DNA of 27,017 nt from positions 1 through 27,017 of the IMG/VR virus record IMGVR_UViG_3300044628_000226; one strand, given 5' to 3'. Positions 1-27,017 of the stretch are shown piece after piece. The notes below the pieces were generated by a model, which was not told where the DNA came from, ran no database searches, and was given only the letters and a program-made list of their open reading frames with translations. The number at the start of each line of letters is the position of its first letter. The stretch's first letter is position 1. Both the position numbers and the translations under genes were made by a program. Source of the stretch: a virus.

Positions 1-280
1 GACGGTCAACCAGCCAACGATTCTGAAGGAAGACAGTCATGAGACCAACTTCCAGAGTACGGATCTGAGATTCATCAAGGTTGAGACCATTGATCTCAGA
101 GATCATCTCCATGACCTCATGAAGTATGGTACTAGTTTCTACTTCCTCTCTCAACCTAAGATTGATTGAAATCCTAGGATAAGGGAAGAAGGAGAACTCA
201 CCAAAGTCACCTTCAGACAACTTTGCGGTAACCACAGGAATACTGTAGTGACCATATATAAGGACTAGGGGGAGCTTCAA
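1..280 (-). CDS. HExxE-motif small phage protein, C-terminus outside window
   Basis: This reading frame is open from a TTG codon at 280-278 to the left edge, giving 93 visible residues. The TTG overlaps the TGA stop of the HNH-like gene (TTGA) and follows GGAGG at 5 nt spacing, so start and coupling are well supported. The centre reads STILHEVMEMISEINGLNLD, then SQIRTLEVGL. This resembles a recurrent small phage family with a TxLHExxEA-type helix and a conserved QIRxLE segment. The HExx part looks like a zinc-metalloprotease helix, but the fifth position is Glu rather than His, so peptidase activity is doubtful. The gene is incomplete because the window ends. I recognise the pattern but do not assign a function. 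Confidence 0.72.
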   Translation of the reverse strand, partial: MKLPLVLIYGHYSIPVVTAKLSEGDFGEFSFFPYPRISINLRLREEVETSTILHEVMEMISEINGLNLDESQIRTLEVGLMTVFLQNRWLVDR

Positions 281-498
281 GCTTTCCTCCGATTAGCTCT
301 ACGAGACATGATTTGGAGGTTGGAACGTCTATTGTCCTTGGGGTTCCCGTTCTTGTGGTCTACTTCCTTACCGTCTCCCTTACGGATCTTTCCTTCTTTG
401 ATCATGAGTCTTCGTGCTTTGTTCCGGTTCGATCTATGGTTGATCTGCTCCGGTTTTGCATGGTACTCACGGTATTCTTTCTTGTAGTCTCGTGCCAT
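277..498 (-). CDS. small HNH endonuclease-like protein
   Basis: This 73-residue, strongly basic protein has a C-terminal core reading GDGKEVDHKNGNPKDNRRSN followed by LQIMSRRANRRK. It matches the short HNH fold: His in VDHKNGN, Asn in DNRRSNL, and a final Asn in the RRAN segment instead of the third His. No separate DNA-binding domain is visible. It sits four genes downstream of terL. HNH proteins beside terminases assist packaging in some tailed phages (HK97 gp74), and free-standing HNH genes can also be homing elements; which applies here is inference. Its stop overlaps the TTG start of the next gene. The N-terminus (MARDYKKEYREYHAKPEQI) is like short phage proteins I recall from cyanophages. 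Confidence 0.78.
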   Translation of the reverse strand: MARDYKKEYREYHAKPEQINHRSNRNKARRLMIKEGKIRKGDGKEVDHKNGNPKDNRRSNLQIMSRRANRRKA

Positions 499-500
499 GG

Positions 501-857
501 TTAGTCTCGTTTGGCTGGGCTTGTCTTCTTGCCGTGGGCTCCACGCATACCGATCTTCAGCTTCTCTCGCTTCTTGGCTGCAAGCTCAGACTTGGACATC
601 TCACCAACGGTCTTGGGAGTCTTCTTGCTGATCTTGAGGGAGGGACGGCAATACTCGTTCTTGCCTCCGCCACCACACGGCTTTCCGGTACGGGTGTCTA
701 CCCACTTTTCGTCTTGCCAACGCTTTAGGTTGGCTCCTGCTTCTCCCTTGCGGACATTGCCCTTGGCCTTGCGGCATTTGGCTGTGGCTTGAGCTGCTCG
801 TGCAGACCACTTCCCGTAGGAGCGCATGACCTTCTTGTAGCAAGCGTCTTTAGCCAT
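501..857 (-). CDS. DUF5872-like basic phage protein
   Basis: This 118-residue, Lys/Arg-rich protein has an N-terminal segment of the form MAKDACYKKVMRSYGKWSAR followed by a conserved KCRKAKGN. I associate this pattern with DUF5872, a family of small proteins in aquatic phages and large DNA viruses whose function is unknown. A central tract holds CGGGGKNEYCR, a possible metal or structural Cys pair. The C-terminus is almost all Lys, Arg, Ser and Gly, suggesting a nucleic-acid or packaged-protein role, but this is inference. It is packed between the 79-aa gene (3 bp gap) and the HNH-like gene (2 bp gap). The ribosome binding site is weak, so translation may depend on the upstream gene. Confidence 0.7.
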   Translation of the reverse strand: MAKDACYKKVMRSYGKWSARAAQATAKCRKAKGNVRKGEAGANLKRWQDEKWVDTRTGKPCGGGGKNEYCRPSLKISKKTPKTVGEMSKSELAAKKREKLKIGMRGAHGKKTSPAKRD

Positions 858-860
858 GGT

Positions 861-1100
861 TCACCAAGCCCTGCAAGACCAGTAACGAGCCTTGGTCTTT
901 GGTCCGGGGTTGTCGCAGTTGTGACGAGCACGGAAGTTCTTGCGCCTTCCGGGAATGTGCTTCTTGATCTTCATGTTGGGATCACCGAAGCGGACGATCT
1001 TGGTCTTCTCCCCATCTTTGACGCAGACAGCAGACTTTTTAGGTCCACCGGGAGTCCTGAAGGGCTTGTTCAGGCTCTTGCCTTCACAGGGGCTTGGCAT
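861..1100 (-). CDS. conserved small Cys-containing phage protein (FRARHxC motif)
   Basis: The start is placed at the ATG at 1100, giving 79 residues, because AAGGAG lies 5 nt upstream of it. An in-frame ATG at 1115 lacks such a site. The protein begins MPSPCEGKSLNKPFRTPGG. It carries VKDGEKTKIVRFGDPNM, then NFRARHNCDNPGPKTKARYW and a terminal SCRAW. This KDG...VRFGDPNM...FRARHxC...YWSCxxW layout recurs in small proteins of aquatic phages, sometimes fused to larger virion or protease proteins. The spaced Cys/His residues could bind a metal. No function is established to my knowledge. It overlaps the end of the upstream 65-aa gene by 31 bp. Confidence 0.72.
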   Translation of the reverse strand: MPSPCEGKSLNKPFRTPGGPKKSAVCVKDGEKTKIVRFGDPNMKIKKHIPGRRKNFRARHNCDNPGPKTKARYWSCRAW

Positions 1101-1267
1101 TTGAACTCCTTGCACATTTCCATGATTTCGGGGGAGACGGATTCACGCATCATTCTCATGCCTCGGGCTAGGTCTTTGGCAGAGTTAATGTGACCACTGG
1201 ACTTGAGATGGTCTTCGTAGAGCAGAACAACAGAAGCCATCAGGATTTGCAGTTCGTCTACATCCAT
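1070..1267 (-). CDS. hypothetical helical protein after terL
   Basis: This 65-residue protein has no family I recognise. It begins MDVDELQILMASVVLLYEDH and is predicted to be almost entirely helical, with several Met residues (ARGMRMMRES, EIMEMCKEF). The start is well supported by AAGGAGG placed 4 nt before the ATG at 1267. It overlaps the terL stop by 10 bp and its 3' end overlaps the next gene. The position directly behind terL suggests late expression with packaging and morphogenesis genes. Nothing in the sequence points to a specific partner. Confidence 0.65.
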   Translation of the reverse strand: MDVDELQILMASVVLLYEDHLKSSGHINSAKDLARGMRMMRESVSPEIMEMCKEFKCQAPVKARA

Positions 1268-2885
1268 GTGTCCTCCTTGGGACGGCGGCCTACAGCGTGT
1301 TCCATAAACCTTTCTAGTTCCTTTTGGAGCACCTCTTCCCTGAAGTTGGCCATCTTCCTGTCTGCATCCTGAGCCATCTTGTCTGCCCAGAAGCCCACAG
1401 CCATGCTGAGGCAGTCAAGACGGTCATCGTGGTACAAAGATCCCTTGGCTCGACTGATGCGACTGAGCTGCCAGATAAGTGAAAATTGGAGAGCCTTCTC
1501 GCTGGCATATGCTTGATGACTGCGATGTCCAAGACCAGACGATGCTGACACAGCACAGGCTCCAGAGTGTCAATGATCCGGCGTTCCTTCTGAATGTTGT
1601 GTCTGACTTCTTCAGTGGTGCATGGGTATTCACGCAGCAGGTACGGCTTGAGCAGCTCAGTGAACATACCGTCACCGAAGTTGGACTCGATCAGGATCAA
1701 ATTGACCTTGTTGTCCTTGGCGATCTTGGTCAGCTTCTTCATGACCTCCTCGCCGTAGCCACCAGCAAGCCCTCCTGCCTGTGTCACATACAAGAAGCCA
1801 TTCAGCATCTTGACCACGCAGTAAGCCGTCTCGTCGCCACCACGGCCCGCAGGATCGATTGCCATGATGCCCCCCTCATAGGGAATCCATCGTCCTTGGA
1901 TCTCCATGGGAGCGTAGAAGCGATCACCGTTGAAGCCGACGCAAGGCAGATCCTTGACGATGTTGTTTGGATTCATCGCCCAGATGGGCTTCTCAGGGGC
2001 ATTTTCAGGGTTGAGCCCAAACACAATCAAGTCGTTGATCTTCAGTGGATATCGATCAGCATCGCTGAGGGTCGAGTCCAGCATGAACTGGAGCGCAAAG
2101 CCCGTTCTGCCATAGGACGCCTCACGCTCCATCAGATCCATGGCGTCGAATCGCTTGGGATCCGTGGGGTCTCCAGACTTGCCTGTGCGGAGCAGCGGAG
2201 CCAGCTTCTCACCGAATGCGACCTTCAGCCGCTCTTCTGGGAACCGTGCTGGCCACACGCGGGTCACATACCCCTTCTCGGCCAGACCGTGGTAAATCGA
2301 CTGTTCCGTCTGGGGCGTACCTAGGTAGATGATCTCCCCACCCGGCTTCAAGACTGCCTCGAACTCAGCTGTACTGGCCAGCAGCTTGTCCCGCATCACG
2401 GCGGTAGCAGAGTTGTTGAGAGACTCAACGTCATCGGCAATGATCAGATCGCCACGGCTACCAGTGATCTGGCTGGTGATTCCCTTTGAGACCACGCTGG
2501 GAGCCTGACTAGGTGGAGCAGGACCAACATCAAAGGCGATCTTGCTGTTTCTCTGGTTGTCCTTTGGCTTCAGATGCTGGCAGAACGGGATCTCATGGAT
2601 CAACCGCAGAGTGAATGTGCTGAAGTCATCTGCTCGTTGCTTGGAGGCAGACACGACCAGAACATTGAGGGTCGGGTCGTGCAGCAGTCTCCAGACTACA
2701 TATGCACTGGTTAGCCAGCTCTTTCCCACTCCACGGAACGCTTGGATGACTCGACGCCGTGGCCCCTTCTGTAGAAACTTGGCAATGTCCAGCTGCACAG
2801 GAGTAGGCTCAGGAAGCCCAAGGTGATCCCACGCAAGACACACAAAGTTGCGGAAGTCCTTGAGCTTGTCCTGCGCCTCGCTCAT
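1258..2885 (-). CDS. terL: large terminase subunit (TerL), interrupted by a -1 frame change
   Basis: This is the packaging motor ATPase and nuclease, homologous to T7 gp19. Frame 0 gives the ATPase: Walker A AFRGVGKS (residues 49-56) and Walker B LIIADD with E154. The nuclease starts with D344 (MAIDPAGRGGDE) and E400/D405 (LIESNFGDG). At about position 1507-1515 the homologous frame changes by -1: frame 0 becomes unrelated sequence and stops at 1314. The other frame continues as AYASEKALQFSLIWQLSRIS, then GSLYHDDRLDCL and ELERFMEHAVGRRP, ending at the TAG at 1258. HDDRLD supplies the last nuclease aspartate, so the 523-aa frame-0 product would lack it. The joined protein would be about 542 aa, against 586 for T7. 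The start overlaps terS by ATGA, with GAGGAGG upstream. The change may be a sequencing or assembly error, a real mutation, or recoding. Confidence 0.93.
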
Positions 2886-3091
2886 GCGGCTTCCTCCTCA
2901 TCTGGATCGAAGGGCATGACCTTGGCAAGGTTCAAGAGCGGCTCTGACGCCTTCATGTTGGCATCGATGCCGTTGTCCTTCAGGAATTGCCTAGCCACAT
3001 TCAGGTCGGCAGGGCTGGCTTCTCCGGATTGAATCCGGTTCAGTAGCTCTGCCCCTAGGGCATTGTGGAGTTGTTTGAATAGTTCTTCCAT
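2882..3091 (-). CDS. terS: small terminase subunit (TerS)
   Basis: This 69-residue protein begins MEELFKQLHNALGAELLNRI and continues QSGEASPADLNVARQFLKDN before an acidic tail (FDPDEEEAA). The QSGEAxPADLNVARQFLKDNGI block is characteristic of the T7-type DNA packaging protein A (gp18 family). It recognises phage DNA and recruits TerL. It is shorter than T7 gp18 (89 aa), which is usual in aquatic T7-like phages. It shares a four-base ATGA overlap with terL, so the two subunits are probably made by coupled translation. The order fibre module - terS - terL matches T7 genes 17-19. Confidence 0.88.
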   Translation of the reverse strand: MEELFKQLHNALGAELLNRIQSGEASPADLNVARQFLKDNGIDANMKASEPLLNLAKVMPFDPDEEEAA

Positions 3092-3093
3092 GA

Positions 3094-4053
3094 TTAGCTG
3101 TTGTAGAGCTCAATGCGGAACGGCTTACCGGAATCGAACTGGCTTTCTGGAAATACCGTGGAAGCCGTGTACATGACGTAGTCAGTACTAAAAGTTGTGG
3201 AAGCTGTCTGCAAGCGGCGAGGATTGGTGAAAAGACGATATCGATTTCCATACACGTTCGCGGGTCCGTAGTACACCTTCATGTATGAATTTGGATTTGC
3301 CGTGATGTATTCCTGCGCTCGGTTTGCGGTCCCATAAACTGATGATGGTCGGAAAGCCAACATTGGTTTGTCGGAATCAAACACATAATTCTGATACAGC
3401 TTTCCCGTTGTGGCATTGCCGCCAAAGATGAATGGGGAGTTATTTGCCAGCTCATCGGTTCCGGGATCGTCGTGGACAAAGCTTCCAATCAACTGGGAGA
3501 TGCCAAGGCTTTCTGCGACAAGTTGAGAGGTAGTGCTTCCGGAAGACATGAAATCCCACCCAGTGCCGTAACTGACAAACTCAGGTTGGAACTCAGGAGG
3601 TGCTGGGTCTGTCGAAACGGTTACGTTGAAGGTATCGAGAACTCTGTCGCCATCCGAAGCATTCAGAACGGACACAATATTCGTGCCAGTCTTACTGGCA
3701 ACGGTACGAAAGGCCACGAAGAAGTTTGGGGAAACAGAAAAGGTCGCTCCAGAAGGCGTAGCTGTCCACGTTGCGGTTCCCGCGAGAAGATCAATGATGT
3801 CCGATGTGACCACACGTTGAATGTTTCCCGCAGTCGTGGACAGTTTCAAGCTGATGGCTTGGGAGGTTCCAGTGACCTTCTGATATGTAAAGCCATATAT
3901 GGCCAAGTTGGATTGAGAATAGAGATCCAACCAGTTCAAAAAGTCCGGAACAACTCCCGTAGTCGGTTGCCTTTCAAGTGTAGAAGACAGATCAAAAGAA
4001 AGACCATCGCTTGTGGTCCTGTCGAAAGCTGTGAAGACAACAAGGTGTTTCAT
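3094..4053 (-). CDS. probable virion or receptor-binding accessory protein
   Basis: This 319-residue protein is rich in Ser, Thr, Asn and aromatic residues, with alternating beta-type segments and no signal peptide or membrane segment. The N-terminus is MKHLVVFTAFDRTTSDGLSF. The middle has Ig/cadherin-like strand patterns (FSVSPNFFVAFRTVASKTGT, then LDTFNVTVSTDPAPP), and the C-terminus is Tyr-rich (MKVYYGPANVYGNRYRLFTN). The segment VTGTSQAISLKL resembles LTGINQPISLRV in the next protein upstream. The gene lies in the fibre-to-terminase interval where T7-like phages often carry extra adsorption proteins. I do not recognise a named family; a fibre tip or capsid appendage role is inferred from composition and position. 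Confidence 0.72.
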   Translation of the reverse strand: MKHLVVFTAFDRTTSDGLSFDLSSTLERQPTTGVVPDFLNWLDLYSQSNLAIYGFTYQKVTGTSQAISLKLSTTAGNIQRVVTSDIIDLLAGTATWTATPSGATFSVSPNFFVAFRTVASKTGTNIVSVLNASDGDRVLDTFNVTVSTDPAPPEFQPEFVSYGTGWDFMSSGSTTSQLVAESLGISQLIGSFVHDDPGTDELANNSPFIFGGNATTGKLYQNYVFDSDKPMLAFRPSSVYGTANRAQEYITANPNSYMKVYYGPANVYGNRYRLFTNPRRLQTASTTFSTDYVMYTASTVFPESQFDSGKPFRIELYNS

Positions 4054-4062
4054 GGTTGACTT

Positions 4063-4542
4063 TCAGTTGAAGACGTATCCAGATCCAATTACGGATGCCG
4101 AATTGATTGAGGCGTTTGAAAACGTAACTGTGACTGGGTTGTCGTGGGCTTCTTTGAATACCCCAACATTCAGTCTCTGAGTGTTTTCAATGTTGATCAT
4201 CGAATCGATGTTAACTGTCTGCCACCCATCTCGTGAAGTCTGCAAAGCAGTAGATGTCAAGTCATTGTCTGAAACACGGACATATACAGTCGTTCCTGTG
4301 ATGTTCGTGATGCCCACAACACGAAGTGAAATTGGCTGATTGATTCCGGTCAACTGATTTGTGCTGTTTACTGAAAACTCGTTTGCGTTAGCTGCAAAGG
4401 TTCCAGTCAAAGTTGCCGCACCACTAGCCAACGTAAAATCAACTACACCTGACGGAACAAGTCCTGCTGAAAGGTTCCAACTTGTTGCCGCAGCTCTTGT
4501 GGACACAATGAAACTGTCGATGACAACGATTGGAAAAGCCAT
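4063..4542 (-). CDS. probable small beta-rich virion protein
   Basis: This 159-residue protein starts MAFPIVVIDSFIVSTRAAAT; AAGGAG lies 5 nt before the ATG. It is Ser/Thr/Asn/Val-rich with short alternating strands (TLTGTFAANANEFSVNSTNQ, then VYVRVSDND), typical of jelly-roll or sandwich modules in tail appendages. It has almost no charge clustering, no cysteines and no membrane segment. The LTGINQPISLRV segment is similar to VTGTSQAISLKL in the next protein downstream, so the two may share a domain. The function is unassigned; a fibre or decoration component is the likeliest reading from context. Confidence 0.68.
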   Translation of the reverse strand: MAFPIVVIDSFIVSTRAAATSWNLSAGLVPSGVVDFTLASGAATLTGTFAANANEFSVNSTNQLTGINQPISLRVVGITNITGTTVYVRVSDNDLTSTALQTSRDGWQTVNIDSMINIENTQRLNVGVFKEAHDNPVTVTFSNASINSASVIGSGYVFN

Positions 4543-4551
4543 TTCAGCTCC

Positions 4552-4860
4552 TTACTGAACGACGTACACGGATGCGGTGGTTCCACCTGCTCCAGCAGTG
4601 GTCACAACGGCCCGAAGATACGGCATCAGCGCCAAGGTCTTTCCAGTCGAGGAGTTAAGTCCAGTGGCGAGGTCGATCCAGTTGTTTCCGCCATCGGCAC
4701 TTCCTTGAATCTTCAGAATTCCCGCACCAGCACTCACAACTTGAGCAGTCCCAATGTTGTTTCGGTTGTTGTTGTCCTTCATGGCATCGATCATGCTGTA
4801 TGAAGTTCCCGTGGTTGTGGTAGCGGTGCTGATTTCGTTGGCAATGAGATGCACGTTCAT
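4552..4860 (-). CDS. small beta-sandwich-like virion protein
   Basis: This 102-residue protein begins MNVHLIANEISTATTTTGTS. Its core is LKIQGSADGGNNWIDLATGL and its end is LMPYLRAVVTTAGAGGTTAS followed by VYVVQ. The pattern of a strand with QGSxDGGxxW, a Thr/Gly-rich turn and a final LRAxVT strand recurs in small phage structural proteins that bind other virion parts. It lacks membrane and coiled-coil segments. It sits between the coiled-coil/membrane protein and the two larger beta-rich proteins. I infer a virion or fibre accessory role; no specific family name can be given with confidence. Confidence 0.66.
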   Translation of the reverse strand: MNVHLIANEISTATTTTGTSYSMIDAMKDNNNRNNIGTAQVVSAGAGILKIQGSADGGNNWIDLATGLNSSTGKTLALMPYLRAVVTTAGAGGTTASVYVVQ

Positions 4861-4867
4861 GTCTGTG

Positions 4868-5077
4868 TCAATCCTTAAAAGGGACCATTTTGACGATCAT
4901 TCCAGCAAGCAGAGAGATAATCGCAGCTGCTCCAAGCATCCACGCTCTGCTTTGTTCGAGTTCTCGAATCCGCTTGTCTAGACTTTTCAGCTCTTGTTCC
5001 TGAAGTCGCAAGGAAGTCATCATCGCGTCAACCTTGCCCTCTAGGCGTCCAAGAGCCAAGAGGATTTCTTCGTTCAT
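4868..5077 (-). CDS. coiled-coil plus single-TM protein, holin-like (XhlA-type layout)
   Basis: This 69-residue protein has an N-terminal amphipathic helix or coiled coil (GRLEGKVDAMMTSLRLQEQE, then KSLDKRIRELEQSR). One hydrophobic segment follows (WMLGAAAIISLLAGMIVKMV) and a short charged tail. This is the layout of XhlA-like lysis-associated proteins. The gene occupies the place of T7 gp17.5, the class II holin encoded just after the tail fibre and before terS. Its start overlaps the collar gene by ATGA. I therefore favour a holin or lysis accessory role, but a single-TM protein in a fibre module could also anchor or chaperone something else. No endolysin is adjacent. Confidence 0.7.
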   Translation of the reverse strand: MNEEILLALGRLEGKVDAMMTSLRLQEQELKSLDKRIRELEQSRAWMLGAAAIISLLAGMIVKMVPFKD

Positions 5078-5385
5078 GGCTCGTACTCGAATGCCTTGAT
5101 GATGTACAGGGTGTTTGCAACAGGCGCAGAGATGTTTGGAAGACTGAAGTTTGAGCCAGATCCTCCAAAGGTTGTTCCGAGCTTAGTGAACAAGTCTGCA
5201 TATGAGGTCTTGCTGACCGAGGCTCCATTACAAGCCAACCATCCCTTCGGAGCCGATGCTGCCGGAATCAACTTGATGTCGCCCACAGCTAAAAGCTGAT
5301 CTGTGTATAAGCGAATCTCAGACAGGTTGTTTGAGGTCTGCAAAAGACCTGTGCTCATGACGGCTTGAACTGTGTTGAGTGACAT
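5074..5385 (-). CDS. phage tail collar domain protein
   Basis: This 103-residue protein carries the Phage Tail Collar signature (PF07484): VGDIKLIPAASAPKGWLACN, then GASVSKTSYADLFTKLGTTF and FSLPNISAPV, ending YIIKAFEYEP. In larger fibres this domain caps or trimerises the shaft; here it is nearly free-standing after a 35-residue helical N-terminus. It overlaps the tail fibre stop (TAATG) and the next start (ATGA). It therefore probably works with the upstream fibre as a separate tip or as an assembly factor. The domain call is firm; the exact structural position is inferred. Confidence 0.85.
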   Translation of the reverse strand: MSLNTVQAVMSTGLLQTSNNLSEIRLYTDQLLAVGDIKLIPAASAPKGWLACNGASVSKTSYADLFTKLGTTFGGSGSNFSLPNISAPVANTLYIIKAFEYEP

Positions 5386-6974
5386 TACGCATACCTCATG
5401 GCAACAAATGTGGAAGTTTGTCCGGAAGCTGAAGTAACATTAACTGGGGTTCCCGGAAGTATCTGTGCAACGGCGGAAGCTGTGCGAGAACCGCTGCTGT
5501 TAAAAGTGATGTAGAGAACAAGCCAAGTTCCAAAACCAGTTTCAACTTGAAGACTTCCACCACTACTAATGTTTAGGAAGTTTGCAATATCAGGAGAACT
5601 GGATGTAAAGTTGGTGTTTCCGTGACTAGTAACGCCAAACATCAAGTGGCGACGTGGAGTGCTATACGCCGTAGAAACATTCCAGCCATTTGCAATTTGC
5701 GCCCCATCGTAAACATCTGCAATGCGAATCGCGTCTCCACTAGAAGTTGGTGCGCCGAGATTTACACACTTGTATGTAGACGTAAAGTCCAAGTTGGATG
5801 AAACTGCACCACCAAAGCCAATGGTGCTGAGAGTCTTAGCGGTGAGTTCTCCAGTTGTAGCAATGTGAAGGAGACGCTCGACACCAGCTCCTGTGAAAGC
5901 AACTCCCTTCATGTTGGTCAAGGCCACAGCATTGAGTCCCAGAGCAGCCGTGTCCACAGCAGCGTTGGCAATCTTCTCGCTGGTGATCGAGTTGTTAGCA
6001 ATCTTCGGCGTCGTGACCGCACTGGTGATCAGCTGATCAGTGCCAACAGAGTTGTTAGCCATCTGGTCGTTACCCACAGCATCGTCGGCAATCTTTGCCT
6101 GAGTCACCGCATCGTTTTGAAGTGCAGCAGTGAACACCGAGTTGTCGGCCAGCTTTGCAGCCGTCACAGCATCATCTTGAATGTTGCTGGTGCTGATCGA
6201 GTTTGCTGCCATGTACGCATTGGTGATCGATGAGTTAGGGACAACATCGAGAGCGTTACGGGCCACGCCGAAGTTGCGAACACGGATTCCCAAACCATTG
6301 CCGGGAGCTGTCGTAAAAACGATTGCGGTTGTAGTAATGGAGTAATCAGTTGAAGGCCGTTGAATTACACCTCCAACTTCGACAATGAACATATCGGCAG
6401 AAGTGCTGCTGGGAGCTGGATTACTCAGTGAGAAAGAGGTCTGCGATCCGGTTCCCGTAGTAGACCACGACTGCGGAATGGTCGAAGCTCCATAAAGGGC
6501 GACTGCGTCCATCTGAGCCTTGGTCACCAGATCGTTTGGATCAATGGCTTGACCAGCGTTCTTCACAGGAAGCGCAGCAGCATTCCAACCCAACTGATCC
6601 GTGGTCTTGCCAAGAGCTCCCGAGCCCGTGTCGTTGGCTTCCTGAACGATGTGGAGCAGTCCCTTGAAGCCCTTGTCGAGATCTTCAGCCGTCAAGACGG
6701 AACCGTTGCTGAAGTCAACGACGTTGCCTGTAAACCCAGCGGAGGTCGCTGGTGTTTCACGAGCAATCTTGACCTTGACTCCAGACGCCGGAGCCGTTGG
6801 ACTGAAGTTCACATTTTCATTTGCAGCGTCAATCGTGTACCCCGTGGTCTGGAGTACGTCATTCAGGTAGACCTTGATGTAGGTCACACTGAGGTAGTCA
6901 TCAATCCCCGCAAAGGAGAACGAGGTCTGAGACCCAGTTCCCGTGTGCAGGACGTAGCTGAGTGGGTTTGGCAT
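5385..6974 (-). CDS. tail fibre protein (T7 gp17-like N-terminus)
   Basis: This 529-residue protein follows AAGGAG at 9 nt spacing. Residues 1-110 (SYVLHTGTGSQTSFSFAGID, DYLSVTYIKVYLNDVLQT, then LTAEDLDKGF) match the T7 tail-fibre N-terminal family (PF03906) that attaches fibres to the tail. A second related module begins at residue 173, again TGTGSQTSFS, with VEVGGVIQRPSTDY. Residues 246-355 form eleven consecutive 10-residue units of the type DDAVTAAKLA / NNSITSEKIA, a common fibre shaft repeat. The last 170 residues form a distinct Ser/Gly-rich C-terminal domain, presumably the receptor-proximal part. No intramolecular chaperone motif is visible. It probably acts with the downstream collar and beta-rich proteins. 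T7 gp17 is 553 aa, so the length is normal. Confidence 0.9.
   Translation of the reverse strand: MPNPLSYVLHTGTGSQTSFSFAGIDDYLSVTYIKVYLNDVLQTTGYTIDAANENVNFSPTAPASGVKVKIARETPATSAGFTGNVVDFSNGSVLTAEDLDKGFKGLLHIVQEANDTGSGALGKTTDQLGWNAAALPVKNAGQAIDPNDLVTKAQMDAVALYGASTIPQSWSTTGTGSQTSFSLSNPAPSSTSADMFIVEVGGVIQRPSTDYSITTTAIVFTTAPGNGLGIRVRNFGVARNALDVVPNSSITNAYMAANSISTSNIQDDAVTAAKLADNSVFTAALQNDAVTQAKIADDAVGNDQMANNSVGTDQLITSAVTTPKIANNSITSEKIANAAVDTAALGLNAVALTNMKGVAFTGAGVERLLHIATTGELTAKTLSTIGFGGAVSSNLDFTSTYKCVNLGAPTSSGDAIRIADVYDGAQIANGWNVSTAYSTPRRHLMFGVTSHGNTNFTSSSPDIANFLNISSGGSLQVETGFGTWLVLYITFNSSGSRTASAVAQILPGTPVNVTSASGQTSTFVAMRYA
5910..6239 (-). repeat. eleven in-frame 30-bp degenerate repeats in the tail fibre gene
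   Basis: Residues 246-355 of the fibre divide without remainder into eleven 10-residue units. Examples are QDDAVTAAKL, ADNSVFTAAL, QNDAVTQAKI, ADDAVGNDQM, ANNSVGTDQL, ITSAVTTPKI and ANNSITSEKI. Positions 4-5 are Ser/Ala plus Val/Ile, and positions 9-10 are polar plus hydrophobic. The DNA has a 30-bp period but has diverged between units. Such repeats build extended trimeric shafts, and their copy number can change by recombination. Confidence 0.85.
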
Positions 6975-6994
6975 GGTTTATAGCTCCTTAGACT

Positions 6995-9900
6995 CTACCG
7001 ACGCGGCTGCTCATACGGGAGGTCGTATTCGTCATTGATCAACTCTTCCAGTTGACTGAGATATCGAGCTACTGGTGGGTAGTTTTGAAGCGGAATCAAC
7101 TTTGAAATATTGTTGGTGGTTTTCCGAGTGATGAATCGGGTGTTTGGGTTGCTCGGATCGAGTTGGTACATAACTTCTCCAGCCACATCACGAACCACGC
7201 TCTGAGCTCGCTTTGCTGTTTCAAGAACCGGGAAATCCAACATATCGGAAGAGCTATAACGGTACTGACTGAGAAGAGGCTCGTCGCTGTAGAAAGACCA
7301 CGCTGCCTCAGCCGCCGTCGTTGGAAGCCACAGCTCACCGGGACCAAGAAGACCCTGCTTCACGAATCCCTTGAGTCCAATGCCTTCCCTGATCTTGTAG
7401 TACTCTTCAAGGTTTCCAGAATCCTTTGCGTTCTGCGCGTTGACGATTGTGATGGCTTGCTTGATGAGCCCAGCGATCATGAAGGATGCGGCAATTTCCG
7501 ACGCGACCTTTGCTCCTGCCGCTGCTTGAGAACGGACATTCCGTGTGTTGTAGAACCGCGAGTAATTCTGCAACAGGAGATTGTCCACAGCCTTGATGTT
7601 GTAGTTTCGGAACTGAGTAAGCAGCGAACCAAGCCCGCTGTCGGCGTATGCCGAAGTATCTGCAATGGTGGCCACGTCCTGAATGCGGGTCTTGACCATG
7701 CGGTCCATGATGCGCCGCACAACGTCAAAGTCAGGATGGTTTGTATTGTTCAAATCGACAATACGTTCCACACCACGCCTATTGACGGTCACAGCGTTTG
7801 CATCTAGGAATCTCCCAGCCGCTTCATATTCAACTCTAGTCAGTCCAAGATTCAGAATCGTGCTTTCATCGAGCTGCTTTACCTGCCCACGACTCATCTC
7901 AAGAAGGTGTTGCAGGGTTGTAACGCCAGTCAAGAACTGGGTGAATGAAGTGATTGGAGCAAGCAGTGTCACATCGGAGTAGATATTGGAAGCTTCTCCA
8001 AGAGCCCGACGAACTCGTCCACGTCTAGAGAATTGAATTTCAGCTTCGGGGGTGCTGTAAACCGTTCGGCGGAGGCGATCCGTGGCAATGCCAAACTGAT
8101 CGAGCATTGCCGTAAGCCCGCGCTGCTGAAGTGAAAGGTCGTTCCACTCACGCATCATCGAGACGGCCATGGGAAGTTCTCGAAGAACTTTGATTGGACC
8201 GAAAGTTCCCATCAACCGCCCTGTTTCTGAAGCCGCAGCCGCACCGAACAATCCTGCGTACAGCAGGAAGGTGTAGCCTTTTGCCACACTCACGCCAGCA
8301 TTCACAATGTTCTCTGCGGTGTCTCCGGCATACCTTCGGACAAATGATCGCGTATCAACTCGCGGTTCAAACTTAAGACTGGCGCGAATTCGCTCGACCG
8401 CGTTGGCTTCCGTGGGATCCAACGGTCGCCCATTTCCGCGAATCTGGCCTTCCCGATTGGCAAAGGAAACCCATTCATCGATGTTCTCAAAGCGAAGACG
8501 AGCATTCCGAGGCCCATTTACCTGTGTTTCGCGGAAGCCCATCTGCCATAGGTCTTCTTCGAGGATGTTGAGAAGCTGACGTTCAGCGGTGGCTCCGAGG
8601 ACCGACGTGGTGTACTTCTTTGAGACATTGACCAAGTCGCGGTTCACGATGTCACCAAAGCGAAGCATCGTCGTTCCAGTTCCAAAGAGATCCACGCCAG
8701 CGTCGATCTCCACATTCTCGTTCAGGATGATTCTCGGACGGCCTCGTGGACTGGGTGATCCAGCTCGGTCGCGTAGCGGGCCTTGCATCTGCTCGATGGA
8801 GTCGATGATCAAGCGGTCAAGATCCAGTAGAGGAGCACCTTCGCCTCCTACAGAAAGCTCCATCAAGCGGTTTGAGAATGCTTCTGCTGCCAGATCGATA
8901 TCCGGAAGATCCAGAATTTGGTAGCTACCCGTCTGAGGATCCCACAGACGAACCTGACGTGTCCCGGGATTGACCTCAAGAGCTGCCGCAAGAAGTTGAG
9001 TGAAGGCGGCACGTCCCTGAGCAGTAGCGGTGACTCGCTGAATTGAGTCGAAGTTGTAGAGTCGTGGGAAGTAGTTCTGAAGCATCCGGTGCATCTCGAA
9101 TCCCGGAACTCCAGCTTGACGTGCATACTCCGCCGTTTCCGTCATCATGGTCCGCATCTCTGCGGCGAAGCTGTTCACAACATCGCTTGCGTCTGGAGTT
9201 CCCGTGGACATGGCGGTCCAAACACGGTTGTCGAATTCCTGACGTGCTGCTCGACTTCCACGACCAAACGCACGAGACACAGATGCTCGGGTGATGGTCA
9301 GGCTGTCCGCAGTGGTCATTCCAAGGGCGAATCGCTGGAAATGCGCCTGATGCGAACGGATCTGCCGTGCAAGTACCGTGTCGAGAATGTTCTTGAACTC
9401 CTCAGACACGGTACGCGGTTGAGGAACAGGGTCGCCAGTGACCGGATCAATCAACACTCGACGCGCAAAGAATGCCCTGTAGGCGAAATGGCGGGCGTGT
9501 GGATTGCTCTGGGGCTCCAGAAGAAGTGCTGCCTGATTCAGGAACCTACGGAGCCACGGAATCCGGATGTTGTTCACAGGAACCGCAGCTTCAAGAGCGG
9601 CAAGCCCCGTGGTTCCGGCAGGAACTGTTCCGGGAAGAGGATTTGCCTTGCCCAGAGAGACTGAGGGAACTCCCTGAGCCGTGATCGTCCCAGTAGGAAC
9701 CGGATTCTGAATGGAGTTTGCAGCAGCGGTTGTTGCGGGAGTTGCTGCTGCTGGAGTCTGCGGAGAAGAGAACTTCACATTGTTCATCTGGTCAGCTTGA
9801 GCTGGATCCTGCTTGAGCCTCCGAAAGCCGAATGGAGAGTTGTAACCGTCCGCAACGTCATCAAACCAAGCATCGAGCTTTGCAATCGTGTCGGGATCGT

Positions 9901-11392
9901 TGGGGATATCCGAAAGCTTGCGGACGCGGTATCCAGCAGCATTCATGTCATCAATTAGGCGATTCGTGGTCGCCTTGACTGCCTCTTCAGCTGTCTTCGT
10001 CAGTGCTCCTGCGGCTTCTGCGGTCTCTTCTGCGGGCTTGGCGACAAGCTTTTCGACCACGTCCTTGGCGCGTTGGGTAATAGCGTCAACTCCGCCATCT
10101 CCAATAGCTCCGGCTGATTCGAGGAAGAAGGGAAGACCCCCAACTTCGGAACCAATAGCCTCCGTCATGATTCGGCTATTGATATCTCCCAAGACAGCCG
10201 GATCATTCGGGATGTCTCCAAACTTGGTTACCGAAGAATCGATAACTCCGCCATCTCTGAGATCGGCAAGAAACTTCTTGGGACTTACTCCAATGGAGCG
10301 CAAGTAGTTGACCAGCCCTCCAGCTTGAGAGCCCAAGATTCGAGTTGGTCCTGCTGGAATAACGGCGGCAAGAGCCCCTGAAATGGCAACTCCAGCCGGA
10401 GGAGCTGAAGCTGCTTGTGCTGTGATGGGCGCGATGGGAAGAGTGCTGAATGCGCTGTCCGCATAGCCCCGCATGAGGTCGTTGGCCATGCGCTTCGAGA
10501 GAGCACCACCAACAGCTCCGCCGAGGGCAAGAGCACCTGCGTATTCGACGGCCAGTTCTTGTGCAGTCTGATCGTAGAAATCGTCAGTGCCGTATCGGGC
10601 CATCGTGAGGATGGTTTGATCGATGACGCCGAGAGCTGCATACCGTCCTGCACGTTCTGCCAGCCCGATCACAGGAGCCGTCTTGGCAAGGTTCTGAGCC
10701 ATGGCAGCAGCAGCCGCTACACGGCCAGAGCCAGCCGTTCCAGCGACAGCGGCTTCAGCAGCAGCCGTACCTGCCTTCGACAGGCGAGAAGCCGTACCAA
10801 GCCACGCAAGAGGCTCTGTAACCATTCCGGTTGCCACCAGAGCGGCAGCGTCGGTCCCAACGTCGGCCCAGATCGGAAGGGATCCTCCGTAGTTTGCGGC
10901 CATCTCTTCCATGACCGAAGGATCCTTCATTCGGTACATGGAAAGACGGTCTTGAAACTCTCCCCAGCTCGGTGCGTTCAGGATGAAGCGTCGATCCTCG
11001 TCTGGGATGTCGTTTGTCATCTCCAGAATGCCTTCGAGGTTGTTGCGGCCAAGCTCCGGATCGGAATCGAAGGCGGTTCCTAGGGAGCCGCTGTATCCAA
11101 ACGGCATCGGCTCAGACATCTTTTTCGGCTCGAAGTTCAACGGGACATTGTGAGTCGCGTCGTTGTCGAAGATGTCGAATCCAAGCTTGTATGCCGCTCC
11201 GGAGGAGATGCGGGCAAAACCAGAGAGAAGTGCTCCTGAGTACCAAGATGGATCCGAAATAAGGGGATCCATCTGTTCCTTGGTCCGTGAACGAACCTTG
11301 GCAGCATGGTCGATGGTCGCTTGCAGCTGCGCTGCTTCGCGATCCGGCATCGTGATGTCTGCAAAACTCCTAGGTTGAAAGAAAGTGCTCAT
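6995..11392 (-). CDS. gp16-like internal virion protein (ejection protein)
   Basis: This 1465-residue protein is the largest in the window and occupies the place of T7 gp16, the DNA-ejection core protein (1318 aa). Its length, position after gp15-like and before the fibre, and ATGA overlap with gp15-like support the call. Visible elements are an Ala-rich hydrophobic stretch near residues 175-200, a Thr/Ala/Pro linker near 540-580, and hydrophobic segments around 1040-1055 (YTFLLYAGLFGAAAA) and 1297-1315 (EIAASFMIAGLIKQAITIV). These could insert into host membranes during ejection. The C-terminal part (LDPSNPNTRFITRKTTNNIS, then LIPLQNYPP) looks like other gp16-family ends. Unlike T7 gp16, I see no N-terminal lytic transglycosylase motif, so local cell-wall opening would need another protein. 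Confidence 0.85.
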   Translation of the reverse strand: MSTFFQPRSFADITMPDREAAQLQATIDHAAKVRSRTKEQMDPLISDPSWYSGALLSGFARISSGAAYKLGFDIFDNDATHNVPLNFEPKKMSEPMPFGYSGSLGTAFDSDPELGRNNLEGILEMTNDIPDEDRRFILNAPSWGEFQDRLSMYRMKDPSVMEEMAANYGGSLPIWADVGTDAAALVATGMVTEPLAWLGTASRLSKAGTAAAEAAVAGTAGSGRVAAAAAMAQNLAKTAPVIGLAERAGRYAALGVIDQTILTMARYGTDDFYDQTAQELAVEYAGALALGGAVGGALSKRMANDLMRGYADSAFSTLPIAPITAQAASAPPAGVAISGALAAVIPAGPTRILGSQAGGLVNYLRSIGVSPKKFLADLRDGGVIDSSVTKFGDIPNDPAVLGDINSRIMTEAIGSEVGGLPFFLESAGAIGDGGVDAITQRAKDVVEKLVAKPAEETAEAAGALTKTAEEAVKATTNRLIDDMNAAGYRVRKLSDIPNDPDTIAKLDAWFDDVADGYNSPFGFRRLKQDPAQADQMNNVKFSSPQTPAAATPATTAAANSIQNPVPTGTITAQGVPSVSLGKANPLPGTVPAGTTGLAALEAAVPVNNIRIPWLRRFLNQAALLLEPQSNPHARHFAYRAFFARRVLIDPVTGDPVPQPRTVSEEFKNILDTVLARQIRSHQAHFQRFALGMTTADSLTITRASVSRAFGRGSRAARQEFDNRVWTAMSTGTPDASDVVNSFAAEMRTMMTETAEYARQAGVPGFEMHRMLQNYFPRLYNFDSIQRVTATAQGRAAFTQLLAAALEVNPGTRQVRLWDPQTGSYQILDLPDIDLAAEAFSNRLMELSVGGEGAPLLDLDRLIIDSIEQMQGPLRDRAGSPSPRGRPRIILNENVEIDAGVDLFGTGTTMLRFGDIVNRDLVNVSKKYTTSVLGATAERQLLNILEEDLWQMGFRETQVNGPRNARLRFENIDEWVSFANREGQIRGNGRPLDPTEANAVERIRASLKFEPRVDTRSFVRRYAGDTAENIVNAGVSVAKGYTFLLYAGLFGAAAASETGRLMGTFGPIKVLRELPMAVSMMREWNDLSLQQRGLTAMLDQFGIATDRLRRTVYSTPEAEIQFSRRGRVRRALGEASNIYSDVTLLAPITSFTQFLTGVTTLQHLLEMSRGQVKQLDESTILNLGLTRVEYEAAGRFLDANAVTVNRRGVERIVDLNNTNHPDFDVVRRIMDRMVKTRIQDVATIADTSAYADSGLGSLLTQFRNYNIKAVDNLLLQNYSRFYNTRNVRSQAAAGAKVASEIAASFMIAGLIKQAITIVNAQNAKDSGNLEEYYKIREGIGLKGFVKQGLLGPGELWLPTTAAEAAWSFYSDEPLLSQYRYSSSDMLDFPVLETAKRAQSVVRDVAGEVMYQLDPSNPNTRFITRKTTNNISKLIPLQNYPPVARYLSQLEELINDEYDLPYEQPRR

Positions 11393-23166: not shown

Positions 23167-23906
23167 AGTCGTACCTTTCTGCTGTCCCAATCGTACTCGT
23201 CCATGCGGAGAATGCGAGCCAGCCTCGCTTGATTCAACGCATATTCGGGGGTGAAGCCGCTGTTGACATACGCATCCTCGACCTCCTGCCAAGTCCCCTG
23301 CTTCAGGATCTTGGCAGCAGTCACGGGACCGACACCTTCAAGGCCGGGGTAGCCGTCTGCCTTGTCTCCAGTCAGAGTCTGGAGAAGCCAGTTCCGATCA
23401 GCCTCTTCCGGCTTTACAAGAGTAAAGGCGTCGTGGTCTGGGTTGTAGAGCCATCCCGGAATGGTCTTGAAGTCCTTGTCAGTGGAGATGATCAAGGAAG
23501 TCAGTCCACGGTGGCTGTCGCGAGTGTGGCACAGACCGATCAGATCGTCAGCCTCGATGCCGTTCTCGGTCATGCAGTGGTACTTCTCTTCCAGCATCTC
23601 TTTCAGAGCCTTGAACCCAGCGGGCTTCCTGACCTTCTTGCGATGCGCCTTGTACTCAGGGTAGATCTCCTTGCGGAAGTTTCCGGATCCAGTGAAGTGA
23701 ATGGTCAGGCTTCCCTTGGTCATGGCCGTGTACTTAGCCATGGTCGCTTCTGCCATCCCCATGGCCTCGTTGAGATTGCAGAACACAACATCGAGATCAT
23801 CATCGAACCGGGCGCAGTACTCACAAGCAGAGCAGATCCCGTAGATCAGGATGTCTCCGTCGATGTGGACTCGGTCGAACTTGTCGGGAAGAAGATCAGT
23901 CTTCAT
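23145..23906 (-). CDS. 5'-3' exonuclease (T7 gp6-like, FEN family)
   Basis: Starting at the ATG at 23906 gives 253 residues; a longer version to 23948 begins with unlikely sequence inside the preceding gene. FEN-type features occur in order: D16/D18 in HIDGDILIYG, the arch and R89 region EIYPEYKAHRKKVRKP, acidic NGIEADDLIGL (118-121), STDKDF (D143, D145), GDKADG (D181, D184), and the helix-two-turn-helix GLEGVGPVTAAKIL (188-201). All metal-binding acids appear intact. In T7 this enzyme degrades host DNA to nucleotides, removes RNA primers and aids concatemer processing. It follows DNA polymerase after one small gene. Confidence 0.92.
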   Translation of the reverse strand: MKTDLLPDKFDRVHIDGDILIYGICSACEYCARFDDDLDVVFCNLNEAMGMAEATMAKYTAMTKGSLTIHFTGSGNFRKEIYPEYKAHRKKVRKPAGFKALKEMLEEKYHCMTENGIEADDLIGLCHTRDSHRGLTSLIISTDKDFKTIPGWLYNPDHDAFTLVKPEEADRNWLLQTLTGDKADGYPGLEGVGPVTAAKILKQGTWQEVEDAYVNSGFTPEYALNQARLARILRMDEYDWDSRKVRLWQPAKN

Positions 23907-24108
23907 CGGATGCTCCAATGTCTCTGGCGATGTCCTTGGCCATCTCAAGAAGACCGATGACCTCGTGGGGATCTGCGTTCGTCGCGCAGTGGTAATCAGA
24001 ACGCTTGTTGGTCGTGCGCTTGTACCCGATGAAGAACATCGAGTCGTAGCGGCGCTTGATCTCTGAAATCAGTTCTTCAGTGGGAATAAAGTCGAGTGGC
24101 TGGTCCAT
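23896..24108 (-). CDS. hypothetical protein between DNA polymerase and exonuclease
   Basis: This 70-residue protein starts MDQPLDFIPTEELISEIKRR. It contains YDSMFFIGYKRTTNKRSDYH, then EVIGLLEMAKDIARDIGASD. The TxELxxEIxxRYDxxxFxG beginning occurs in many unrelated small phage proteins, but I cannot name a domain family. It looks like a small alpha/beta protein with helices at both ends. It starts within one base of the polymerase stop and overlaps the exonuclease start by 11 bp, which argues for translation with both replication genes. The function is unknown. Confidence 0.72.
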   Translation of the reverse strand: MDQPLDFIPTEELISEIKRRYDSMFFIGYKRTTNKRSDYHCATNADPHEVIGLLEMAKDIARDIGASDED

Positions 24109-25853
24109 CAGTGAGTCTCCGCCCAGTTCTTACCCACACGGTATTCGCCATCCAACGGGCATCGGAAGCCGAACGAAGCACCCGCACGACGGATCGCCTC
24201 GACCATGATCTTACCAACGGCGTCCGCATGGAGGGGATCGCACATCAGCTGGTATTCGTCGTGAACCGCAGCAACTTGTTGCACATCAAGGTTGTTCTTC
24301 TTGAACTCATCGTGGGCAATGATGCAAGCCTCCTTCATGATCACAGCACCCGCGCTTTGCAGCAGAGTGTTCAGTGCTGCGTGTGAGCTGCGGATCGGAA
24401 GCACTCGACCATCAATGCCCTTGAGTTGTCCTTTGGTTCCAACGATGCGCTCAACATCATCCTTGAGTTTCTGAAACGCAGGTACAGCCGTGTAGAAGTT
24501 CGCACGGCTCTTCTTGCCCTTCTTCACATCACCGCCGAGAACCAGCCCAAGCTTGGTGTCTGCTGCGCCGTAGATCAGGGCGTAGATTCCTCCCTTGGCT
24601 TGGTTTCGTGCAGACTTGTGGCTTGGGTTCGCCTTGTCTTGCTGCTGCTGAGGAGCCAGACCAAACGCCTTCGCATTCTCCCAGTGAATGTCACAAGAGA
24701 TGACCTTCTTGGCGTACTCGCCTTTGTCGTACCTCCCGAGGAAATGCGCGAGACAACGAAGCTCAAGACCAGAAGCGTCAGCACCTACGAGAACCTTTCC
24801 GTCAGCAGGAATGAACAGAGACCTGTAGGCCGGATCGGTGGGAACCTGAGCCATGTTGGGAACGCTGTGGGTGCAACGGCCAGTCACTGCACCGTTGGTG
24901 TTCACACGACCATGAAGCTTGCCGTCGATGTGAAGCTTCAGCCAAGCGTTCTCACCGTCTGCAAGTTGCCCAAGACGCTTGACGCAGGTCAGGTACTTGG
25001 CGAGAAGCTTTGCCTCTGGGTAATCCAGAGAGTCAAGCACAGACTCATCAACACGAGCACGACCATCAGGAGTCATCTCCGTTGGTTGCCATCCATACTT
25101 CTCGATGAGACGCTCTGCGATCTGTGTGCGTGAGCCGGGATTGAACTCTTCGATCTTCGGCTTCAGAGGCTTGCCAGTCTTCTCGCTGACTCTGTTGATG
25201 ATCTTGTCAGGAAAGACCTGACGCATCTGTGATTCGATCTCCAGCTTCTCCCTGATCAGCGCGGAGTGAAGCTTCTCGGCGGCGTGAACATCGAACTTGA
25301 ATCCGTTGCGTTCTTGTTGCCTGATGATCTCTGCGAACTTGTGCTCGACCTCCACAGCCTTCGGATCAATCTCTGCGATGTTGAGATGCTCGTACAGCTT
25401 CACCGTGACGCGCACATCCTGCTGGCAATACTCCAGCATCTCTTCGGAGAACTCGGTGAAGTCTGGAGCATCTCCCTTGTGGAGCTTCAGCCTGTGTCCC
25501 CAAGCCTTCAGGCTGTGTGAACCAACCAGCTCCTTCGGGAAGCCGCTGTTCAGGGTTCCGAAGTCATCGTTGCGGAGATCCGGATACTTGAGGCGAGACA
25601 CGACAAGCGTGTCGATGATCGGGCAGGAAAGCTTCAGACCAATCAGCTTCTGAAGAGCTGGGAGATCGAAGGCCATGATGTTGTGGCCGATGACGATCTC
25701 CGCGATGGCACACAGCTCGATGAGTTGTGAAGCAGTTACTTGCCGAGGTTCTGCTCCATCGACGCTCACGACGATGCAGTGCAGCGTCTTGAGATCCGTC
25801 ATGTGGATCCAGTCCTCGATCATGTTCGTTTCGATGTCTAGGAAGAGTTTCAT
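24108..25853 (-). CDS. family A DNA polymerase with 3'-5' exonuclease (T7 gp5-like)
   Basis: This 581-residue protein (T7 gp5 is 704 aa) has an intact proofreading domain: exo I FLDIETN (D6, E8), exo II GHNIMAFD (N58, D63) and exo III YCQQD (Y142, D146). Polymerase motif A is DASGLELR (D359, E364). Motif B is RNQAKGGIYALIYG (R416, K420, Y424, Y428), and motif C is HDEYQL (H531, D532, E533). Y424 corresponds to T7 Tyr526 and E. coli Pol I position 762; Tyr there is associated with lytic phages. The shorter length suggests a reduced thioredoxin-binding/thumb insertion, which I infer from size only. It overlaps the upstream small gene by ATGA and abuts the next gene. Confidence 0.95.
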   Translation of the reverse strand: MKLFLDIETNMIEDWIHMTDLKTLHCIVVSVDGAEPRQVTASQLIELCAIAEIVIGHNIMAFDLPALQKLIGLKLSCPIIDTLVVSRLKYPDLRNDDFGTLNSGFPKELVGSHSLKAWGHRLKLHKGDAPDFTEFSEEMLEYCQQDVRVTVKLYEHLNIAEIDPKAVEVEHKFAEIIRQQERNGFKFDVHAAEKLHSALIREKLEIESQMRQVFPDKIINRVSEKTGKPLKPKIEEFNPGSRTQIAERLIEKYGWQPTEMTPDGRARVDESVLDSLDYPEAKLLAKYLTCVKRLGQLADGENAWLKLHIDGKLHGRVNTNGAVTGRCTHSVPNMAQVPTDPAYRSLFIPADGKVLVGADASGLELRCLAHFLGRYDKGEYAKKVISCDIHWENAKAFGLAPQQQQDKANPSHKSARNQAKGGIYALIYGAADTKLGLVLGGDVKKGKKSRANFYTAVPAFQKLKDDVERIVGTKGQLKGIDGRVLPIRSSHAALNTLLQSAGAVIMKEACIIAHDEFKKNNLDVQQVAAVHDEYQLMCDPLHADAVGKIMVEAIRRAGASFGFRCPLDGEYRVGKNWAETH

Positions 25854-26041
25854 TTGTTCACCATATCCTCGTATGTCTTTCCCTGATCTTCAAGCAGTCG
25901 CTTCAGCTTCCGTAGAGCTTGTAAGCCACATTCCTTGATGGATTCGGGAGAGTCAGTCTTGTTCTCTTGTGAGTTCCAGATCCGAGTTACCTCAGACCAA
26001 GACCTCAGTCCTTTGTCGAATTCAGTACTCACGGGCCTCAT
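25850..26041 (-). CDS. hypothetical small protein upstream of DNA polymerase
   Basis: This 63-residue charged helical protein starts MRPVSTEFDKGLRSWSEVTR and ends LKRLLEDQGKTYEDMVNK. No family is recognised. It overlaps the DNA polymerase start by ATGA and the upstream gene by 20 bp. A GTG at 26032 is an alternative start. The heptad-like ALRKLKRLLEDQG suggests a short coiled coil. The tight coupling to polymerase hints at a replication-related role, but this is only context. Confidence 0.6.
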   Translation of the reverse strand: MRPVSTEFDKGLRSWSEVTRIWNSQENKTDSPESIKECGLQALRKLKRLLEDQGKTYEDMVNK

Positions 26042-26381
26042 ACTCCGCGAGTCGAAGCAGAAGTTTTGTGTTCTCTTTCTTCAGCCTCGTGATCGTCTCT
26101 TCCTTGGTCTCGATTGGTTCCATGAGGATCGGAGTGTGAACCCCATGCCAGCCTCCCAAGATGTTGAAGTTGAAGAACTCGATGGCATCAGTTTCATCCA
26201 TGCCTTCAGCCATCAGATTGGCACGGATGATTGCGTTGTCGTAGACAGCAAGAGCTAACTGGCCGCACCTCTGGCCGACACCAATGATTGCGTTGTCGTG
26301 ACCATCCACGAACAAGGCAAGTTCATTGTGCTCTGCGACGAATGTGCGAGGGTCATCCAAGAAGCACCTTCGTGACTGCAT
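26022..26381 (-). CDS. conserved-looking phage protein with VYD...FNxxGGW pattern
   Basis: The longest frame has 119 residues from the ATG at 26381. A TTG at 26360, next to the upstream TGA, with AAGG before it, would give 112 residues beginning MDDPRTFVAEHNELALFVDG. The core reads NAIIGVGQRCGQLALAVYDN, then MAEGMDETDAIEFFNFNILG and GWHGVHTP. A domain with DGxDxAIIGxGxR...AVYDxxKxIxxLMxxDGMxxxEAxEYFxFNxxGxW layout is widespread as a small hypothetical protein in phages and bacteria. The C-terminus adds a coiled coil (IETKEETITRLKKENTKLLL). No biochemical role is known to me. It overlaps both neighbours. Confidence 0.72.
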   Translation of the reverse strand: MQSRRCFLDDPRTFVAEHNELALFVDGHDNAIIGVGQRCGQLALAVYDNAIIRANLMAEGMDETDAIEFFNFNILGGWHGVHTPILMEPIETKEETITRLKKENTKLLLRLAEYEAREY

Positions 26382-26562
26382 CTAGTGCTTGAACCATCTG
26401 CGGAAGGGGGACTTCGACTTTGGTATTCACGATCTCATCTTTCTCAAGATCGTGCTTCTCCACAGTCAATGTGACCGTGGAAGAATCTTCAGTCCACCCA
26501 GAGACGATCAATGTTGTCCTGCTGACCTTGCGCTGTTCCTCACAAGTGATTCGTATGTCCAT
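26353..26562 (-). CDS. hypothetical small beta-rich protein
   Basis: Three in-frame ATGs exist (26580, 26568, 26562). The last is preferred because AAGGTGAG ends 6 nt before it and the first lies inside the upstream gene; the choice remains uncertain. The 69-residue product starts MDIRITCEEQRKVSRTTLIV and alternates strands (SSTVTLTVEKHDLEKDEIVN, then TKVEVPLPQMVQALDAVTKV). No family is recognised. It is part of a run of small early or middle genes ahead of DNA polymerase and overlaps the next gene by up to 29 bp. Confidence 0.62.
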   Translation of the reverse strand: MDIRITCEEQRKVSRTTLIVSGWTEDSSTVTLTVEKHDLEKDEIVNTKVEVPLPQMVQALDAVTKVLLG

Positions 26563-26569
26563 AGTCATC

Positions 26570-26746
26570 TCACCTTCCATTTTCTGTTAGCTCCTTCAGC
26601 TTCGTCTCGTTCATCTTGATCTCGATCTTGAGCATCTTGATCTGCTCGTTCAGTTCCCCGATTCGATCACGAATCCGTCGAGTCTGCACATCGATGTTGA
26701 TGGCCTTGTTCCATGGATGATCCTTCTTGGGCTTTACGGCAGTCAT
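26570..26746 (-). CDS. short coiled-coil protein (58 aa)
   Basis: An ATG at 26746-26744 overlaps the stop of the upstream gene (TAATG). The frame runs 58 codons to a TGA at 26572-26570. The product starts MTAVKPKKDHPWNKAINIDV and ends in a Lys/Glu heptad helix (RDRIGELNEQIKMLKIEIKM, then NETKLKELTENG). It fills what would otherwise be a gap of about 170 bp between neighbouring genes in a region with no other gaps, which supports its reality. The function is unknown. The helix could mediate dimerisation. Confidence 0.62.
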   Translation of the reverse strand: MTAVKPKKDHPWNKAINIDVQTRRIRDRIGELNEQIKMLKIEIKMNETKLKELTENGR

Positions 26747-27017
26747 TAGTCAACCTCGCAGTTTCCGGGGCGTCCGTTCTTCTTGAAATCGTTCACGAAC
26801 TGATGCTTGTAGTGCTTTCCATCCGGCCAAGTGATGAGCAGTTGGAGATGGCCGATCTTCACCGTGGGACACACGCAGATCCGTCTGGAGTAATTCCGCA
26901 TCTGCTGCCAGAAGTAGATGTCCTCGTCGGTCTTGTACGGCCCCCATTGCCCGCTCATGTCAGGCTTGCTGAGGAACAACGGCCTAGGGAGGCGGTTCAA
27001 CGAAGAGACGCGAAGCA
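26746..27017 (-). CDS. C-terminal part of a possible glycosyltransferase-like protein, start outside window
   Basis: The frame is open to the right edge and ends with TAA at 26748-26746. A TTG at 27000 could serve as start, but no stop precedes it in the window, so a truncated larger gene is more likely. The segment YKTDEDIYFWQQMRNYSRRI, then CVCPTVKIGHLQLL, matches the acceptor-side end of GT-A type glycosyltransferases. There a (T/E)EDxxFxxxxRxxG...V.P.V..GH block carries the general base and a metal-binding His. The tail WPDGKHYKHQFVNDFKKNGR is unassigned. With only about 90 residues visible, the donor site cannot be checked, so the call is tentative. Confidence 0.55.
   Translation of the reverse strand, partial: LRVSSLNRLPRPLFLSKPDMSGQWGPYKTDEDIYFWQQMRNYSRRICVCPTVKIGHLQLLITWPDGKHYKHQFVNDFKKNGRPGNCEVD

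Follow-up and report, generated by a model that had tools for sequence, protein, structure and literature searches.

The DNA analysed here is a linear virus record of 27,017 bases (the window). It derives from an autographivirus and carries on its minus strand the gene of a T7-like large terminase (TerL; gp19/maturase B family). The main open reading frame of terL (frame 0) starts from an ATG at position 2885, stops at 1314 and specifies a protein of 523 aa that matches the T7-type RNase H-like domain PF22530 (E 2.3e-39). A family profile search matched chains 8dgc_E and 4bij_A at 1.3e-237 and 4e-222, respectively. The ATPase motifs and the RNase H-like nuclease core of the gene are homologous to those of gp19. 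The gene is collinear with that of T7 gp19 (DNA maturase B; PDB 4bij, NC_001604) over the ATPase and the first nuclease part, and shares with the T7-like family the motifs FRGVGKS, ADDVE, DPAGRGGDE and ESNFGDGMF. Compared to T7 gp19, however, it lacks 22 bases, and frame 0 terminates with neither the DYxS segment nor HDDRLD included. The TerL proteins annotated in Desulfovibrio phage ProddE and in uncultured phage MedDCM-OCT-S45-C18 (Autographiviridae) are 51-62% identical to that of the window but, unlike it, are encoded by one unbroken frame. The features of the locus are as follows.

1258 to 1514, minus strand: 3' part of terL, lying in the −1 frame and closed by the ancestral TAG stop; its 84 codons, HDDRLD among them, are nearly identical to those of relatives.
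1314 to 1514, minus strand: out-of-frame tail of the 523-aa product (HMPARRLSNF...SKRN), with no counterpart in TerL relatives.
1514 to 1515, minus strand: junction where 22 bases are absent according to the alignment; AA microhomology.
1515 to 2885, minus strand: 5' part of terL, read in frame 0; its 457 codons run collinear with those of intact relatives and include PF22530, the ATPase motifs and the RNase H-like acids at DPAG and ESNFGDG.
2882 to 3091, minus strand: small terminase subunit (DNA packaging protein A; PF11123, 1.3e-16), intact and overlapping the start of terL.

When an intact relative was used as query in tblastn, the window returned a split match: residues 1-459 aligned in tblastn frame −1 (2885-1509) and residues 461-549 in frame −3 (1527-1261). 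Such a split was seen for the window only. Homology in frame 0 is lost after the residues V-I, the final agreeing codons ending at 1515, while the C-terminal stretch AYASEKALQFSL...HDDRLDCL...TWM is encoded one frame back, up to a TAG at 1260-1258. The HDDRLD motif, presumably the site of the third metal-binding acid of the RNase H-like nuclease as in terminase nucleases generally, is thus present in the DNA but only in the −1 frame. The invariant Asp of the (K/R)xDYxS segment that precedes it is absent at the junction. These results bear out the first-pass annotation, which had placed a −1 frame change inside terL at about 1507-1515, with a stop at 1314 and a resumed frame ending in the TAG at 1258, and had noted that the last nuclease acid falls outside the main frame. 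Relatives of terL were found in 2,550 phage records; the best of these mostly align only to about query residue 458, the same place as the break. A TGA at 1572 closes the −1 frame on its upstream side; any shift between the frames would therefore be confined to the interval from about 1569 to 1314.

With the window protein as query, 29 loci were retrieved from IMG/VR, and the 24 close relatives spanning the site were aligned. The relatives read as a single open frame of 549 codons and cover the 523-residue query with 3 x 523 + 22 bases. The alignment contains one gap, of 22 bases and in the window only (the bases are present in 24 of 24 relatives), preceded directly by GTCATC at 1515 and followed by AAGCATATG. 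Across this gap the relatives encode (K/R)-N-D-Y-E-S-T, and the 22 bases are part of that coding. Since the homology between the two breakpoints amounts to the dinucleotide AA, the exact junction is ambiguous by 2 bases. By eye, the lost piece is flanked in the relatives by an imperfect direct repeat of the GTC-A-C-CAAA type, CAAA recurring at both of its ends. The identical sequence would result if 21 bases between the CAAA copies were lost in frame and one more base in addition, and one event is therefore indistinguishable from two. Among the relatives, L009 (IMGVR_UViG_3300032309_001000), L004, L007 and L008 show about 97% nucleotide identity to the window TerL gene on both sides of the junction and have the same genes next to it; they differ from it in possessing the 22 bases and an open frame of 549 codons.

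The loop between the nuclease motifs had already been noticed to look short, correctly so, and the homologue alignment proposed at that stage, once run, showed residues to be missing at the junction relative to every relative. One could still suppose that this lineage has a naturally shorter loop and that a single base was lost from it. The sense of the frame change fits a one-base loss, and the two-step path through CAAA would have the same appearance. Yet every close relative has the full-length loop, including those with up to about 98% nucleotide identity upstream; residues must therefore have been lost in this contig as well, and single-base loss alone is excluded. We regard this explanation as very unlikely. 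Of the three causes originally put forward, then, a deletion of about 19-22 bases holds, as a loss of 22, whereas neither a lone missing base nor recoding does (see below).

Two further possibilities were considered and set aside. Relocation of the segment, as in a split gene or one acting in trans, was dismissed because nowhere in the window does the sequence come closer to the 22-mer than 7 mismatches. The presence of an att site, promoter, RNA element or other special nucleotide element here was likewise rejected, synonymous-site conservation being unexceptional: 0.70-0.71 for residues 451-480 against a gene mean of 0.64 +/- 0.065.

A wider set of loci was collected with two queries, an alignment of 14 TerL proteins (A1) and the C-terminal 101 residues, for which 80 and 45 loci were fetched. 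Hits were obtained in 154 loci, the window included. In 147 of them residues 440-500 are spanned in one frame, 6 end before the site, and the frame change is found in the window only. Some contigs were fetched twice among the wider TerL loci; over this stretch the 147 one-frame loci reduce to 104 distinct nucleotide sequences. No further IMG/VR contig has the 22-mer that reads across the junction, uniqueness here referring to the searched set, outside which very near records may lie. A search for terL relatives in bacterial and archaeal genomes found none, and a literature search found nothing specific to this break. One of the 147 loci, L157, has a lone in-frame stop elsewhere in TerL, at the start of the nuclease (GADETA*AVV), and is otherwise intact; it constitutes a second isolated lesion in this TerL family, on another metagenomic contig.

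These data bear directly on the idea that the two frames are joined by programmed −1 frameshifting, or by bypassing, into a functional and slightly shorter TerL. Sequence conservation in the downstream frame is good, and shifting by −1 near 1515 would yield a protein of 542 aa that includes HDDRLD. Moreover, some natural T7-like TerLs have loops that are equally short, counting 53-55 residues from position 440 to 500 as opposed to 61. Against this, the first-pass annotation had suggested looking for the same break in related genomes, and it was present in 0 of the 147 relative loci, leaving recoding unsupported. Its remark that no slippery heptamer lies at the junction agrees with a scan of the whole gene, in which the three X-XXY-YYZ sequences map far away, at 2727, 2487 and 1875, with none in the frame overlap that the stops at 1572 and 1314 delimit. 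The missing piece includes the codon for Asp460 of the 549-aa protein, which corresponds to Asp480 of T7 gp19 and is an Asp in all 105 distinct aligned protein stretches, in 14/14 members of A1 and in T7 gp19 itself. The joined protein would lack this residue, whereas the 8 loci with natural short loops (53-55 residues) keep it. Because an invariant Asp lies in the missing piece and no heptamer occurs between the stops, a recoded and working TerL appears unlikely; conservation of the downstream frame is fully accounted for by recency. Programmed joining of the frames we hold to be highly improbable. Even less credence is due to a variant in which a non-canonical −1 shift allows expression of the shortened gene, the nuclease works without the invariant Asp and the lineage is hidden from the databases searched.

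We conclude, with a probability of roughly 0.94, that the frame change is caused by a private deletion of 22 nt in an ordinary T7-like terL, originating either in a natural defective genome or in a library or assembly error. We regard the frame change as damage to the gene and not as a programmed mechanism, and the window gene is a broken member of the T7-like TerL (gp19/PF22530) family.

Sequence comparison also gives an indication of age. On either side of the junction, the same relatives match the window at about 97% nucleotide identity. Relative to the closest of them, the upstream 457 codons contain 28-40 synonymous and 1-2 nonsynonymous differences, and the downstream 84 codons 4-5 synonymous and 2-4 nonsynonymous ones; the slight nonsynonymous excess near the C-terminus (e.g. 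M to V) is too small for interpretation. As the downstream frame is undecayed, the deletion would be either very recent or not biological. A chimeric join of two strains was considered, but the equal identities to the same relatives on the two sides do not obviously point to a join. A generally error-prone contig was also discounted. In about 25 kb aligned with G001, the closest long relative (39.9 kb), the deletion is the only genic difference whose net length is not divisible by three. The other genic indels are multiples of three or are compensated a few bases on, so that the contig is otherwise clean over the aligned length.

Two origins of the 22-nt deletion then come into question. It may have arisen naturally in a living phage population, defective or mixed, where complementation during co-infection maintained the defective genome or where it was sampled inside a cell ahead of its loss; we put this at not quite even odds. 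The near absence of homology at the junction implies that some of the sequenced molecules probably carried the deletion, the imperfect repeat of the relatives could favour slippage, and the contig is intact elsewhere. T7-like phages cannot do without TerL, however; such a genome should be rare in its population, yet it forms the assembled consensus, and no second contig of IMG/VR shows the junction. Alternatively, the contig may have taken up a library molecule that was chimeric or had slipped, or a fault of low-coverage consensus or gap closing. The single occurrence in one metagenomic contig, the lack of decay and the essential nature of the gene are in line with such an artefact, and the lone stop of L157 shows that isolated lesions occur in contigs of this kind. 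On the other hand, the junction repeat is too short to mislead a k-mer assembler (repeat collapse seems unlikely with an exact breakpoint homology of only 2 bases), and no other frame-breaking indel was seen in the 25 kb. To this origin we assign an even chance.

In this one sequence, 22 consecutive bases are missing between the nuclease motifs ESNFGDG and HDDRLD; a loss of this length is not divisible by three and leaves the 3' end out of frame. The encoded product of 523 aa lacks both Asp460 and HDDRLD. Most likely, it would retain the ATPase part and have no working nuclease domain, a loss of TerL function deduced from the coding capacity of the DNA. The genome would then be unable to cut concatemers and to be packaged unless complemented, and, if the deletion is real, the contig would provide one example of a defective phage genome appearing as the consensus in a sample. 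The importance of the finding is mostly limited to annotation: the contig should be flagged as having a broken terL, and without its reads it should serve neither as evidence for recoding nor as a marker-gene sequence in TerL trees.

Some additional features of the neighbourhood were noted. Identity to G001 (the same as L039/L040) is 96% over window positions 1-2873 and 80-85% over 2875-9963, a segment with terS and tail genes; the drop just upstream of terL looks like a recombination boundary. Downstream of terL lie a small HNH endonuclease gene (277-498; PF13392, 8.7e-10) and a small DUF5872 gene (501-857, region 493-860). The latter is present in L007-L010 and missing from L004, L005, L006 and L028, in which its flanks adjoin each other, making it a presence/absence gene. 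Over window positions 1-502 identity to close relatives is about 96% (L007) or about 82% (L004-L006), which makes this end of the window mosaic. Finally, G001 has about 260 bases between the parts matching window positions 23896-26579 and 26586-27017; this difference, at 26580-26586 of the window, is a small indel between early genes.
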